Translations under genes and position numbers: made by a program
Part shown: positions 7,133 through 14,455 of the stretch, in pieces
Position numbering within the stretch: the stretch's first letter is position 1
Layout: every line of letters starts with the position of its first letter
Notes under the pieces: model-generated
Seen by the model: only the letters and a program-made list of their open reading frames with translations
Told to the model about the DNA's origin: nothing
The model's database searches: none
Assembly: GCA_937918935.1 (NCBI GenBank)
Contig: CAKZSI010000041.1
Location: forward strand, 1 to 64,000
Direction of reading: 5' to 3'
DNA length: 64,000 bases
Source of the DNA: an uncultured Chloroflexales bacterium
GTDB taxonomy: Bacteria > Chloroflexota > Chloroflexia > Chloroflexales > Chloroflexaceae

Positions 7133-10100
7133 ATGGACCATGCACACGGACGATCTCGCCACCTACATGTCTTGACGCGAAGACCGGCGCTCTTCGGGGG
7201 CCTGCTGGCCCTTGTTGCGTTGCTCCTGGGTCTCGCGGGGATCGGTGCTCTCCTCGCCAATCCGATTGTGACGGTGCAGTTGCAGGGCTCGAGTATCCCG
7301 GAGGGTGACAGCGGGACCTCGACCGCCACCTTCACCGTGAACCTCTCCCAGGCCCTTGGTGCCGGACAGCAGATTGTCCTGGCGGTCACCACTGATGCCG
7401 GCCCCTCCAACCAGGCCACGGCGGGGGCCAGTTGCGGCTCCGGGGTTGATTACGTGAGCAACTCGGCTACCCTGACCTTCAATCCCGGCGATGTTTCGCA
7501 GACCTTCGCGGTCACCATCTGTGGCGATACGGTGGACGAACTCAACGAATCGTTCGTGGTGCGCGTCACCGTGCAGAGTTCGAATGTGGCCACGGTCCAG
7601 CCGCCTGTGGGCCAGTCTACTGAGGTTGTTGCAATTATTACCGATGATGATAATCCTACGGTCCAGAGCATCAACGCGCCTTCGGTGCTGGAGCACGCCG
7701 GCCCGCTGAACTTTGTGGTGACCCTCAGCGCGCCGCCGATCGAGAATGTCGTGATCGCCTATTCGACCGGCGCCGTCGGTGATACGGCGACGGCGACCAC
7801 TGCCTGCCCCGCTGTTGGCAATGCAACCCAGGATTATGTCGGCGTCACCAATGGGACGCTGGTGATCCCTGCGGGCCAGGATACAGGCACGATTGCCATC
7901 CAGGTCTGTGATGATGCGATCCCGGAGCCTCCCGGTACCGAGACGATGACCCTCGTGCTGGATTCGCTGAACTCCTTTAGCGTGAATCTTCCGTTCGGGC
8001 AATCTACCGCCACCGGTACGATCCAGGACTCCAACGCCGCCCCGACGATACCTCCCTCGCAGACCTTCAATGTGGATGAAAACAGTCCGATCGGTACAGC
8101 AGTTTCCCCGGCGCCGGGCCAGATCACGGTCAGTGACCCTGACGGCCCCGGAACCACTTTCACGGTGACCGGCGGCACCGGTCAGGGTCTTTTCACCGTG
8201 AATGCCACGAGCGGGGCGATCACTACGAACCAGGTCTTCGACTTTGAGACCCCGCCCACCAGCTACACGCTGACGGTGCAGGTCTGCGATGGCGGCACGC
8301 CCAACCGCTGCGCGAGTGGAACGGTGACGATCAATATCAATGACGTCAACGACCCGCCGGTGGTGACGGGGGCGACCTTCAGCATCGCGGAGAACAGCGC
8401 GGTGGGGACGAACGTGGGCACGCCGGTGGCGGCGACCGACCCGGACGTGCCGGCGCAGACCCTGACTTACAGCATCACCGCGGGGAATACCGGGAGCGCC
8501 TTCGCCATCAACGCCAGTACGGGTCAGATCACCGTCAACGGGGCGCTGGATTACGAGACCCTGAACACCTACACCCTGACGGTGCAGGTGTGCGACAATG
8601 GTACGCCCAGTCAGTGCGGCACGGGCACGGTCACGATCAATGTGACCGACGTGAACGAGGCGCCGGTGGTGACGGGGGCGACCTTCAGCGTCGCGGAGAA
8701 CAGCGCGGTGGGGACGAACGTGGGCACGCCGGTGACGGCGACCGACCCGGACGTGCCGGCGCAGACGCTGAGCTACAGCATCACCGCGGGGAACACGGGG
8801 GGCGCCTTCGCCATCAACGCCAGCACAGGGCAGATCACTGTGGCCGCCGCAGTGCTGGATTACGAGACGACACCCACCTACACGCTGACGGTGCAGGTGT
8901 GCGACGATGGTACGCCCAGTCAGTGCGGCACGGGCACGGTCACGATCAATGTGCTGGATCAGAACGAAGCTCCTCCGGCAATCACGTCTGGCCAGAGCTT
9001 CAACGTGGCCGAGAACAGCGCCAACGGCACGGCGGTGGGGACGGTGGCGGTGACCGACCCCGACGGACCGACGGCCACGCGCACGTTTACCATTACGGCG
9101 CCTGCCGGGGCGCCCTTTGCCATCAGTTCGCCTGGCGGTGAGATCACCGTCAATGGGACGCTGGATTATGAGAACCTGAATAGCTACACACTGAGCATTC
9201 AGGTCTGCGATGGCGGTACGCCCAGTCTCTGCGGCACGGGCGCGGTGACGGTGAACGTGACCGACGTGAACGAGCCGCCTACGGTAGACCTGAACGGCGC
9301 GGCCCCCGGTGTGAATTACACCGCCACCTATACCGAACAGGCCGCGCCCACGACGATTGTTGACGCGGCGGCGGACGTGACCGATCCCGATACCACCTCG
9401 CCCAACAATCAGATCGCCACCCTCACAGCTACCATAACCGACTGTGAGGCAACCGAGAGTTTGAGCGCCAGTTCAGGAATGTGGAATGCGGCGACGTGTA
9501 CCTTTACGGTGACCGGGCCGCTGAGCACCGCAGCTATGAGCGTCGTGCTCCAGAGCCTGAGCTACGCCAGCACGTCCGACACCCCGCCGGCTTCGCGGAC
9601 AATTACTGTGGTCGCCACCGACAACGGCACACCGCAGCAGACCAGCCCGGTGGCAACCATCACCCTCAACATCACGCCGGTGGATGATCCGCCCACGCTC
9701 ATCAACAACGGCCTGACCGTGGGCGAGGGGCAGAGCGCGGCAATCTCAGCCGCGGCGTTGCAGGCGGTTGATCCCGACACGCCGCCCGCCAATCTGAGCT
9801 TTACGCTCACAGCGCTGCCCGCACGCGGCGAGTTGCGCCTGAATGGCGTGCTCCTCACCGGCGGCAGCTTTACCCAGGCCAATATCAACGCCGGGCAACT
9901 GGTTTACACCCACGACGGCTCGGAGACTACCAGCGACAGCTTCAGCTTTACCCTGAGTGATGGGACCACGACCCTGCCCGTGGCGACGTTCACTATTACG
10001 ATCACGCCGGAGAACGACGACCCGGTGCTGACTACTAGCCCCGGGGCCACGCCGTATGTGCAGGGGCAGCCGCCGGTGGTTATCGATCCCGGCGTGACTG

Positions 10101-11254
10101 TGACGGATGCGGATAGCCCGAACTTCGGCGGCGGCAGCCTGAGCGTTACGCTGACCGGTGGCGGGTCGCAGGATCAACTCGGTGTGCTCAACCAGGGTAA
10201 TGGCCCGGGCCAGATCGGTGTGAGCGGGGGCATCGTGCGCTACGGCGGGGCGCCGATCGGCTCGCTGAGCGTGAGCAGCGGCGGCCCGCTGGTGGTGCTG
10301 TTCAACGCCAGCGCCACACCCGACGCTGTGCAGGCCCTGACGCGGGCGATCACCTTCGCCATTCCGAGCGGGACGGCCGCCAGTGGCCCGCGCACGGCGA
10401 CGTTTATCGTCAGTGACGGCGCGGGCGGCAACAGCGCCCCGGCGACGAAGGTGATTGACGCCAACCTGCTGCCGCTTGCGGTCAATGACACGCAGCAGGT
10501 GGTCATGAACACCCCCAGCCGCCTGGCGGTGCTGGCCAATGACTCTGACCCCGATGGCGACCCGCTGACCATCACCGCGGTCGGCGCTCCCGGCAATGGG
10601 AGCGTGCAGATCATCGAGAATGGCCAGGCGCTGCGCTACACGCCGGGCGCGGGGTATCAGGGGCCGGATAGCTTCACCTACACCATCAGCGATGGTCGCG
10701 GCGGCACGGCGACCGCGACCGTCAACCTCACGGTCGAGCGGGCGCGTATCTTGCTGCCCTACATCCACGACCGCCCGGTGGAACCTGACCTGGTGGTGGA
10801 CTTCAGGCTCGTTCCCGCGAGTCCCCGCGCCTTTATGCCCGCCAGGGTCGAGGTGACGGTGACCAACCGCGGGCGTGGGCCGGCCTCGAACTTCTGGGTG
10901 GACTTCTATGTCAACCCGCGCGAGGCGCCCACGGTCAACCAGCCGTGGAACGAACTCTGCCGCGACCGCAACTGCCGGGGCATCGCCTGGTTCTACGAGG
11001 GAACCCTCCGTCCGGGTGAGAGTGTGACCCTCATCAGCACGCCGCAGAGCGCGGACAATCCCAACGGCTACCAGCCCCGCTACACGATCTGGGATGGGTT
11101 CTTTGAAAACGGGTCGTACACCCTGTACGCCTATGTGGATAGCTGGAACCGTGACAGCAGCGGCACGGCCCGCGATCCGCGCGGCGCGATCGCCGAGGAG
11201 AACGAGGATAACAACCGCGCCGAGCGGCAGGTGACCGTCGAGGTTGATCGCTAG
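7133..11254 (+). CDS. Giant exported Calx-beta/cadherin/CARDB adhesin-like protein
   Basis: A 1373-residue secreted protein. A positively charged start and hydrophobic segment (about 20-45) form a signal sequence. Two Calx-beta-like domains follow (about 43-165 and 180-300), then four cadherin-like repeats (about 303-406, 408-512, 511-610, 613-715) with DEN, DPD and DVND calcium-site motifs. Further Ig/cadherin-like modules run to about 1112, a tandem-95-like module spans about 1117-1203, and a CARDB-like domain ends the chain. No C-terminal anchor is visible. A likely role is calcium-dependent cell-cell or surface adhesion, which is inference from the domains. The ATG follows AAGGAG. The exported protein at 11346 lies just downstream. 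Confidence 0.88.
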   Translation: MDHAHGRSRHLHVLTRRPALFGGLLALVALLLGLAGIGALLANPIVTVQLQGSSIPEGDSGTSTATFTVNLSQALGAGQQIVLAVTTDAGPSNQATAGASCGSGVDYVSNSATLTFNPGDVSQTFAVTICGDTVDELNESFVVRVTVQSSNVATVQPPVGQSTEVVAIITDDDNPTVQSINAPSVLEHAGPLNFVVTLSAPPIENVVIAYSTGAVGDTATATTACPAVGNATQDYVGVTNGTLVIPAGQDTGTIAIQVCDDAIPEPPGTETMTLVLDSLNSFSVNLPFGQSTATGTIQDSNAAPTIPPSQTFNVDENSPIGTAVSPAPGQITVSDPDGPGTTFTVTGGTGQGLFTVNATSGAITTNQVFDFETPPTSYTLTVQVCDGGTPNRCASGTVTININDVNDPPVVTGATFSIAENSAVGTNVGTPVAATDPDVPAQTLTYSITAGNTGSAFAINASTGQITVNGALDYETLNTYTLTVQVCDNGTPSQCGTGTVTINVTDVNEAPVVTGATFSVAENSAVGTNVGTPVTATDPDVPAQTLSYSITAGNTGGAFAINASTGQITVAAAVLDYETTPTYTLTVQVCDDGTPSQCGTGTVTINVLDQNEAPPAITSGQSFNVAENSANGTAVGTVAVTDPDGPTATRTFTITAPAGAPFAISSPGGEITVNGTLDYENLNSYTLSIQVCDGGTPSLCGTGAVTVNVTDVNEPPTVDLNGAAPGVNYTATYTEQAAPTTIVDAAADVTDPDTTSPNNQIATLTATITDCEATESLSASSGMWNAATCTFTVTGPLSTAAMSVVLQSLSYASTSDTPPASRTITVVATDNGTPQQTSPVATITLNITPVDDPPTLINNGLTVGEGQSAAISAAALQAVDPDTPPANLSFTLTALPARGELRLNGVLLTGGSFTQANINAGQLVYTHDGSETTSDSFSFTLSDGTTTLPVATFTITITPENDDPVLTTSPGATPYVQGQPPVVIDPGVTVTDADSPNFGGGSLSVTLTGGGSQDQLGVLNQGNGPGQIGVSGGIVRYGGAPIGSLSVSSGGPLVVLFNASATPDAVQALTRAITFAIPSGTAASGPRTATFIVSDGAGGNSAPATKVIDANLLPLAVNDTQQVVMNTPSRLAVLANDSDPDGDPLTITAVGAPGNGSVQIIENGQALRYTPGAGYQGPDSFTYTISDGRGGTATATVNLTVERARILLPYIHDRPVEPDLVVDFRLVPASPRAFMPARVEVTVTNRGRGPASNFWVDFYVNPREAPTVNQPWNELCRDRNCRGIAWFYEGTLRPGESVTLISTPQSADNPNGYQPRYTIWDGFFENGSYTLYAYVDSWNRDSSGTARDPRGAIAEENEDNNRAERQVTVEVDR
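8355..8966 (+). repeat. Two near-identical 306-bp tandem copies inside the adhesin gene
   Basis: The segments starting at 8355 and 8661 are almost the same at DNA level over long stretches and encode cadherin-like repeats 2 and 3. The period is exactly 102 codons. The neighbouring repeats at 8040 and 8970 are clearly diverged, pointing to recent duplication or gene conversion of this pair. Confidence 0.85.
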
Positions 11255-11345
11255 CCCCAGGTTCGAGGGTGGGGGAGGTCGCCTGGCCCTTCCCCACCCA
11301 ACCGACGGACCAGGCTGGCTCAACTGTTGCTTCAGGAGGTTTTGT

Positions 11346-12095
11346 ATGCGACGCCAGATTGCCAGTGTGACCCTGATGCTCTGCGGCGCGATCCTGTTGA
11401 TGTTGGGGATGGTGGTGGTTCCCGCGCCTGTGCCGGTGGCGGCGGGACCGGCGCTCCAGCCCTCGCCGCGCCCGCCGCTGGAACCGACTGCTCCGCCGGA
11501 GGGTGGTCTGCCCGCGCCCACGCCGATCCCCTACGGGCGAGTGACGGGAACGATCATTGACCTTCGCACGGGCGCCCCGGCCCCGGGCAAACTGGTTGTG
11601 ATCGGCGACTCAACCGTGATCAGTGACGCGAACGGCAATTACGACCGCTGGGTGGTGAGCGGCTTCTACGATCTCTATCTCAGATTGCGTGACGGCGAGG
11701 GGCGGGTGATCCAGCCACCCCAGCAGATCGCCGTGGGTAACGGCGATACGGTGGTGGTGCACCTGTTCTTCACCAGCGAAGCGCCGGTCGCCCCGGCAGC
11801 GCCCGAGCCGACTGCAACGGCGGCGCCCGAGCCGACTGCGACGGCGGCGCCCCTCCCGATACCAACGCCCACCCCTGGCGAGGTGGTGGCGGTCGCGCCG
11901 GTCTCGCTGCCCAGGACGGCGGCGACCGGTGCGAGCGTGCCCGGGCCGCTGCTGCTGGCGGGCGCGGCGCTGCTGGGCCTGGGCGCGTTGCTGCAGGTGC
12001 GCCCGCGCCGCCGCGCCGCCCGGCGCCAGGAGGCCGATCAGCGCCTGCTACGGCGGATGCTGGCGACCCCGCCCGAGGAGTCCTCAGAAGAGTAG
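11346..12095 (+). CDS. Exported carboxypeptidase-regulatory-like protein with sortase-like LPRTA tail
   Basis: A 249-residue exported protein. A signal peptide occupies about residues 1-32, followed by a Pro-rich linker. A carboxypeptidase-regulatory-like beta-sandwich (about 60-140) is recognisable from the VTGTIIDLRTGAPAPG and ISDANGNYD segments. A repeated EPTATAAP linker leads to LPRTA at 188-192, a hydrophobic helix at about 201-218 and an Arg-rich end. That order of motif, helix and basic tail is the layout of a cell-wall sorting signal, although A replaces the usual final G. If no sortase exists, it would simply be a membrane-anchored lollipop protein. The ATG at 11346 follows an AGGAGG site. 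It probably forms an operon with the adhesin. Confidence 0.85.
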   Translation: MRRQIASVTLMLCGAILLMLGMVVVPAPVPVAAGPALQPSPRPPLEPTAPPEGGLPAPTPIPYGRVTGTIIDLRTGAPAPGKLVVIGDSTVISDANGNYDRWVVSGFYDLYLRLRDGEGRVIQPPQQIAVGNGDTVVVHLFFTSEAPVAPAAPEPTATAAPEPTATAAPLPIPTPTPGEVVAVAPVSLPRTAATGASVPGPLLLAGAALLGLGALLQVRPRRRAARRQEADQRLLRRMLATPPEESSEE

Positions 12096-13234: not shown

Positions 13235-14455
13235 CTACCATCGCACGCTGACAGGGGTGCCCAGAGGCGCCCAGCCGTAGAGCCAGGCCGCCGACGCGAC
13301 GGGCAGGTTGATGCAGCCGTGACTGCGACGCACGCCCGTGCCGAACTGGTTGTGCCAGTAGGTGCCATGGAGCGCCACACCGCCAACGATGTACATGGCG
13401 TGGGGCACATCGGGCACGTTCCAGCACTCGCCGCCAGCGCAGCCGCGCATCGTCTGCGAGCGCACCTTGTAGTAGATGGCGAAGCGACCCACCGGGGTGT
13501 TAAAGCCGTCGCGCCCGGTAGAAACCGGCGCGTCAAAGACCATGCGCTGACCCTCGTAGGCGTAGAGCCACTGGTCGCTCAGGTCCACGATGATGCTTTT
13601 GCCGCCGGAGGAGGGGGCCGGAGCGGCTCGGGCCGGGGCCGGCGCCGGAGGAGCGGACGTGGGTGCGGCCGGAGCCGGCGCAGGTGCGGCAGGCGCCTCG
13701 GTGGCAGGTGGGGCGGCGGCGGGGGCGGCATTGAGTGGTTGGGCAGGCGCGGCCGGTTCGGGAAGAGCCTGGCCGCCGTTGTCAACCACGAGCGCCCCGT
13801 CCGGCGCGCCCGGCGAGGTGGGCAAGCCGCGGAGGAGCGCCAGATCGCGCCCCAGGCCGCCGATCTGCACGGCCTCCGCTGGCGGCGCGTCGGGGTAATG
13901 CTCGAGACGCACCCGCTCGAAATACTGGACGAGCGCCAGCCGCGGGCCGATGTACTCCCAGGCCGGCGCGCCGATCGGCAAGCCGAAGACTTCCAGGCCG
14001 CCATTCGCTTCCCAGTAGCTCAGGAACGGCGGGCCGACCGTGTACCCCGTTTCGGGAAACAGGCGCGTGTCGGGCGGCAGTTCGGCCACCGGCGCGGGCG
14101 GATCGAAGCGCCGCCAGAGGGCTTCGCTGTATTCGGCCCCCAGCCGCCCGCGCAGGATGGCGCCCCCGTACTCCGGGTGCAACTCCAGGCGCCCGCGCTC
14201 GAAATACTGCACTGTCAGACCATTCTCGACCAGATGGGGGGTGATCGGCGGGCCGAGGGTCAGCGCGCCGTTGCTGTCGCGCCAGTGGCCGAGAAAGCCG
14301 TACTCGTTGCTCAGACGCTGGCCCGTGGCGGCAAAAAAGAGCGCGTTGTCCATCGCTACGCTCTGGCGCGGCGCTACCCATGCTCCGACGATGATCCCCA
14401 GCAACAGACTGCCTACGCATGCCGAAAGAAAGCGTCGGGTGAGCCGGAAGCGCAT
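13235..14455 (-). CDS. Exported L,D-transpeptidase (YkuD family)
   Basis: A 406-residue envelope enzyme. An N-terminal hydrophobic segment (about 8-30) is a signal or anchor. Residues 40-200 hold two similar units with LGPPIT and GLPIGAP turns and QYFER motifs, a module common in exported proteins of this phylum. A long Pro/Ala-rich linker (about 215-275) follows. The C-terminal YkuD domain has the HGTYWHN strand and the SHGCINL motif with catalytic Cys381. It would form 3-3 peptidoglycan cross-links or attach proteins to the wall. An AGGAG site precedes the ATG at 14455. It probably shares a transcript with the R2lox gene. Confidence 0.93.
   Translation of the reverse strand: MRFRLTRRFLSACVGSLLLGIIVGAWVAPRQSVAMDNALFFAATGQRLSNEYGFLGHWRDSNGALTLGPPITPHLVENGLTVQYFERGRLELHPEYGGAILRGRLGAEYSEALWRRFDPPAPVAELPPDTRLFPETGYTVGPPFLSYWEANGGLEVFGLPIGAPAWEYIGPRLALVQYFERVRLEHYPDAPPAEAVQIGGLGRDLALLRGLPTSPGAPDGALVVDNGGQALPEPAAPAQPLNAAPAAAPPATEAPAAPAPAPAAPTSAPPAPAPARAAPAPSSGGKSIIVDLSDQWLYAYEGQRMVFDAPVSTGRDGFNTPVGRFAIYYKVRSQTMRGCAGGECWNVPDVPHAMYIVGGVALHGTYWHNQFGTGVRRSHGCINLPVASAAWLYGWAPLGTPVSVRW

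Follow-up and report, generated by a model that had tools for sequence, protein, structure and literature searches.

P0001, a 249-residue protein encoded in the window (the whole stretch of 64,000 nucleotides that was analysed), carries an LPRTA sorting signal that is conserved in its homologues, and its gene forms a conserved pair with that of a giant adhesin. Beyond the signal, the membrane helix and an Arg cluster, its tail runs on into a cytoplasmic DxxLLxxLL-type motif, which recurs in the cytoplasmic segment of one class of sortases, represented in the same genome by the C36 sortase, and is absent from 21 other LPxT tails. It is tentatively proposed, with something short of even confidence, that P0001 is a sortase substrate which tethers the giant adhesin and is docked with a C36-class sortase through the shared motif.

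Sortase substrate choice is thought to depend on the motif on the outer side of the membrane. A motif inside the membrane, common to a sortase class and a substrate family, would add a second recognition layer, and it is this sharing, as far as sequence comparison goes, that appears to be new. No report of a motif shared by sortase and substrate was found in a search of the literature on sortases and Chloroflexota surface proteins, a search conducted mostly outside subscription papers.

P0001 and its sorting signal

The earlier note described a small surface protein with a sorting-like tail (LPRTA, helix, Arg tail), and the translation bears this out (Table 1). It overlooked the 22 residues that follow the Arg cluster and contain the conserved cytoplasmic motif. 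The N-terminal hydrophobic segment is recognizable by eye in both the sequence and the structure model. A lipoprotein anchor was considered and rejected: the Cys of the signal segment lies outside any lipobox, as judged by eye, and is not conserved in all homologues. The structure model, built on an alignment of five sequences, has a mean pLDDT of 58.8 and can be relied on for the beta domain alone, for which Foldseek finds transthyretin-like domains of carboxypeptidases and Gram-positive pilins; the match of Pfam CarboxypepD_reg to the same domain is below its cut-off. This domain is a possible adhesin-binding part of P0001, and a Pro-rich stretch lies between it and LPRTA.

Table 1. Features of the P0001 locus, with positions in the window
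Feature	Position	Strand	Basis
Giant adhesin, 1373 aa, with Calx-beta, cadherin-like and CARDB-like domains	7133..11254	+	ORF, Pfam
Adhesin terminal CARDB-like domain, conserved beside P0001 homologues	10736..11251	+	fold match to CARDB structures
AGGAGG, probable ribosome-binding site, just before ATG	11334..11339	+	sequence
P0001, 249-aa surface protein	11346..12095	+	translation of the window
Signal-peptide-like segment, residues 1–24	11346..11417	+	sequence; helix 2–24 in model
Transthyretin-like beta domain, residues 63–142	11532..11771	+	model pLDDT ~80 over most; Foldseek
LPRTA sorting motif, residues 188–192	11907..11921	+	sequence, homologue alignment
Transmembrane helix, residues 200–218	11943..11999	+	sequence and model
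Arg cluster, residues 219–227	12000..12026	+	sequence
Cytoplasmic DxxLLxxML motif and Pro, residues 231–243, common to the C36 sortase	12036..12074	+	sequence comparison

P0001 has the layout of an LPXTG-type substrate, with LPxT, a hydrophobic helix and basic residues near the C-terminus. Against the curated LPXTG anchor model TIGR01167 it scores 12.5 bits, short of the cut-off of 15.9, which only one protein of its own genome exceeds. Of the 61 genomes searched in the order, 47 give a match to P0001 at E <= 0.01, with weak and low-complexity rows counted. Named relatives identified through P0001 comprise a Chloroflexaceae bacterium, a Chloroflexus sp. and two Chloroflexota bins. Of 32 homologue loci read, 31 include the 3' end, and in every one of these LPxT precedes the helix; L029, whose gene continues past the edge of its contig, is outside this count. 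Since L, P and T are invariant in 26/26 aligned homologue tails and LPxT is present in 31/31 homologues, the LPRTA of P0001 is beyond chance. The fifth position of the motif varies between relatives (A in 21, G in 6, N in 3 and S in 1 of the 31), which makes the sortase with relaxed motif choice suggested in the earlier note plausible; a simple membrane anchor, its other suggestion, is possible. In many relatives a second LPxT (LPYTG, LPFTG, LPDTS or LPNTS) is located ~20–40 residues ahead of the conserved one (L016, L018, L019, L021, L022, L038 and L039; also L011–L013 and L015).

The same note had called a sorting signal unexpected here and had advised a search of the genome for sortases and other such tails. 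The genome (4.6 Mb in 85 contigs, Chloroflexaceae-like) contains four genes that exceed the Pfam cut-off for sortases and encodes four further secreted proteins with LPxT-like tails, LPGTS on C40, LPATS on C2, LPATG on C7 and LPNGNTG on C44, the gene of the last adjoining a sortase gene. Sortases are present in 61/61 genomes of the order searched, where LPxTG, LPxTS and LPxTA are frequent tail motifs. The signal is therefore ordinary in this genome and order, and the expectation that LPRTA would be out of place was wrong. Nor does the genome present the case that would have refuted the note, a lack of both sortases and other such tails. Searching with a degenerate DNA pattern for LPxT tails gave zero matches, and its control gave six. 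Two of the own-genome sortases, both on C44, have additional features: L004:1228-1926 resembles a lipoprotein (LLAGC), and L003:637-1938 has repeats like those of the YkuD protein ahead of the sortase domain.

Class D sortases recognize LPxTA signals (PMC5148588). The LPxTA motif of P0001 is similar, but none of the own-genome sortases reaches the cut-off of a class D model, the best scores being 47.2 vs 165 bits for NF033746 and 52.3 vs 140 bits for NF058671.

The giant adhesin and the conserved gene pair

The giant adhesin has a hydrophobic segment at its N-terminus, and a C-terminal membrane helix is not seen. Its terminal domain is encoded directly upstream of the P0001 homologue and on the same strand in 20/20 loci picked for holding such a homologue, the remaining neighbours being variable. 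Outside the terminal domain, the adhesins of relatives vary in size and composition. The two are paired in 39 of 47 homologue hits, the pairs coming from 33 genomes (hits down to E 1.6e-6, with weaker rows and G020:C286:9168, a further segment of one gene, left out), and five genomes contain two or more diverged adhesin/P0001 pairs. Two of the eight unpaired homologues, both from G014, start within 20 bases of a contig end.

Matches to the adhesin domain without an adjoining P0001 homologue make up 33 of 72, these being the best among the matches listed, with weaker rows left out. Twenty further loci were read, 16 with an unpaired adhesin domain and four with a diverged pair. Two of the 16, L081 and L089, have an LPxT-tailed gene directly downstream, and that of L081 may be, by its sequence match (E 0.008), a remote P0001 homologue. 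At L080 there is a protein that ends in a membrane helix and basic tail, the downstream sequence of L091 and L093 is too short to judge, and the other unpaired loci show neither feature.

The conservation of the gene pair supports a functional pair, and with it the suggestion of the earlier note that P0001 could tether the adhesin; the suggestion gains in support and stops short of proof. The tether is drawn by analogy with ScaE of Ruminococcus flavefaciens, a sortase-anchored cohesin scaffoldin (PMC5301203). ScaE is a small LPxTG-type anchored protein with a single domain for the C-terminal module of a large partner from the same cluster, an arrangement proposed here for P0001. The ScaE domain is a cohesin with measured binding, whereas in P0001 the domain is transthyretin-like and its binding putative, the signal is LPxTA and the inner tail bears a motif. 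Pfam and fold searches of P0001 and the adhesin found no cohesin, only carboxypeptidase-regulatory-like or transthyretin-like and CARDB-like domains. The proposed adhesin-tether pair provides surface gene candidates in those filamentous Chloroflexota that glide, by means of proteins that PMC7004002 lists as unknown.

Two further observations concern the locus. The extreme C-ends of adhesins in many relatives carry a short hydrophobic-Pro-x-Arg(-Pro) motif, e.g. ELPIRPAKP or VIPKRPLHP (L062–L064, L070, L071, L073–L082, L090 and L094–L097), which is absent from the own genus and the G031-like genus. An L,D-transpeptidase (YkuD) gene is located near the pair on the minus strand (window positions 13235–14455) and nearby in several relatives too.

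A cytoplasmic motif in candidate substrate tails and in one sortase class

After the Arg cluster, the tails of P0001 homologues run on into one or two copies of DxxLLxxLL. Of 30 tails, 27 contain it (40 copies vs 1.04 expected on shuffles); the 30 are a set selected by script for LPxT and enough sequence beyond it, which drops L029 (off contig) and the short, motif-less L030 and includes L027 by way of its second LPxT. Four short tails, L024, L027, L030 and L034, have no motif though their 3' ends are present. Among other LPxT tails from relatives the motif is found in 0/21, a set that includes orthologous pairs and comes from 23 loci viewed among the stronger of the matches listed, less two without LPxT and helix. 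In the own genome, LPxT tails other than that of P0001 stop soon past the basic residues.

A profile of the substrate tail gave weak matches in the sortase N-terminus of two relatives (E 0.7 and 1.6). Sixty-three sortases, a choice from the matches listed, were then read, and 53 of these form one class, as judged by a common pre-helix segment and a mostly TLITCTNWDTQRL-like active site. The motif is located in the cytoplasmic N-terminus of all 17 class sortases of the first batch (17 copies vs 0.27 on shuffles) and of 35 of the 36 in the second, L160 being the exception. In the own-genome C36 sortase it reads DDDDLLRELL.

Score matrices made from one family were applied to the other; each was made from related sequences rather than from independent events, and the 831 background ORFs include unreal frames. 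With the substrate-only matrix the pre-helix site is the best window in 50/53 class sortases; 32 of the 53 fall in the top 1% of background and 12 lie above all background. The reversed matrix places 5/53 in the top 1% and none above all background. Sortases of other classes were ruled out as carriers, with 0/10 in the top 1% under the substrate-only matrix. With the sortase-only matrix 25 of 32 homologues have their best window in the substrate tail, and 11 score above all background; the motif of P0001 itself is weaker than most, with 10/831 background ORFs scoring higher. A combined profile, searched against eight whole genomes, ranks the C36 sortase first and P0001 second in their own genome, both being training sequences, and the reversed combined profile gives no match better than E 0.15.

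The best of the class models for the C36 sortase is that of class E, NF033747, at 69.7 vs 160 bits, and the enzyme has a cytoplasmic N-terminal extension ahead of the membrane helix, a trait of this class. It is assigned to neither class D nor class E, as both models are far under their cut-offs. Its sequence relatives of known structure include class C enzymes and SrtE1, the class E sortase of Streptomyces coelicolor. SrtE1 is the nearest precedent: its cytoplasmic extension is essential in vivo, loss of the acidic part leading to a null phenotype, and the authors speculate on an interaction of the extension, with no partner named (PMC5148588). The C36-class sortases likewise have a cytoplasmic N-terminal extension with an acidic stretch. 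The SrtE1 substrates carry LAxTG, in contrast to the candidate substrate here, which has LPxT[AGNS] and whose tail has a motif in common with the extension of the C36-class sortases. The shared motif makes the contact of the SrtE1 extension a testable question.

The linker between the membrane helix and the catalytic domain of the class sortases, L001 included, contains a conserved LP[FYVIA][TVIES]-type stretch, mostly LPFT(T/R/A)P, in all 51 linkers that could be delimited by script. The stretch looks like a built-in pseudo-substrate and may be compared with the linker tripeptide seen in the active site of SrtE1 (PMC5148588).

Proposed docking and anchoring, and alternative readings

We infer cleavage, an acting sortase of the C36 class, docking and tethering as follows. 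P0001 would be exported and stay in the membrane through its C-terminal helix with the tail inside the cell, where it would meet the C36-class sortase through the shared cytoplasmic site before cleavage. As the same motif is present in both cytoplasmic segments, the two tails probably bind a common cytoplasmic partner or else one another. The sortase would then cut after the Thr (LPRT/A) and join P0001 to the envelope, and the transthyretin-like domain would hold the terminal CARDB-like domain of the adhesin non-covalently. That the choice of substrate is set by the inner DxxLLxxLL contact as well as by the outer LPxT is possible, if doubtful; were it true, it would explain the cytoplasmic extensions of class E-like sortases.

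Because other proteins apparently carry the motif as well, DxxLLxxLL could instead dock many membrane-bound envelope proteins on one cytoplasmic hub, and be shared for localisation rather than by a dedicated pair. This reading, judged somewhat unlikely, accounts for eight combined-profile matches outside the sortase and P0001 families below E 0.15, where the reversed profile has none, and for motif-bearing matches, some of them weaker, in LCP-like proteins of two genera, the C-tail of an LspA-like protein, an FtsK-like linker, a LysM protein and kinases, all named from reading the sequences by eye. It is also in line with the sortases that retain the motif where P0001 is missing (G007, G022 and G029, at E <= 0.01). 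These genomes tell against the docking and tether proposal, as do G008, G015, G026 and G037, whose sortases keep the motif although the homologue has one of the four short tails, the adhesin matches without an adjoining P0001 homologue, the weak motif of P0001 itself and its low score in the LPXTG model. However, these other carriers are weak, the first two ranks in the own genome belong to the sortase and P0001, albeit as training sequences, and a general localisation signal sits poorly with its absence from the 21 other LPxT tails. GpsB-type hubs of Firmicutes bind a short Arg-rich motif in the cytoplasmic tails of wall enzymes. They resemble the proposal in that a short motif in cytoplasmic tails recruits several wall proteins to one hub, but the motif shared by P0001 and the sortase is Leu-rich and its hub only postulated.

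Cleavage would strip the conserved cytoplasmic motif from the exposed protein, a cost avoided if P0001 stays uncut and links the adhesin to a cytoplasmic partner, e.g. for surface movement or gliding, with LPxT unused by a sortase. The Chloroflexus gliding proteins, listed as unknown, leave room for such a coupling (PMC7004002), which is nevertheless improbable: a plain anchor fails to explain an LPxT that is invariant in 31/31 homologues while the other sequence from domain to helix varies, and sortases are encoded in every genome searched.

Short amphipathic helices near membranes are common, and in several genera the sequence on either side of the motif is not the same in sortase and substrate, as would be expected if LLxxLL had arisen convergently as a membrane-surface helix in both proteins, with no specific partner. 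The success of the reciprocal matrices, which include the acidic and Pro flanks, argues against such convergence, as does the fall from 32/53 to 5/53 in the top 1% on reversal, and the 21 other LPxT tails lie near the same membrane without the motif; convergence is considered improbable. Docking of P0001 with the C36-class sortase is retained as the tentative proposal.

Among the other apparent carriers, L198 (G031) and L196 (G042) are, by eye, LCP-like wall-polymer ligases with a Cys/His motif, in which DxxLLxxLLxxP is located directly before the membrane helix.
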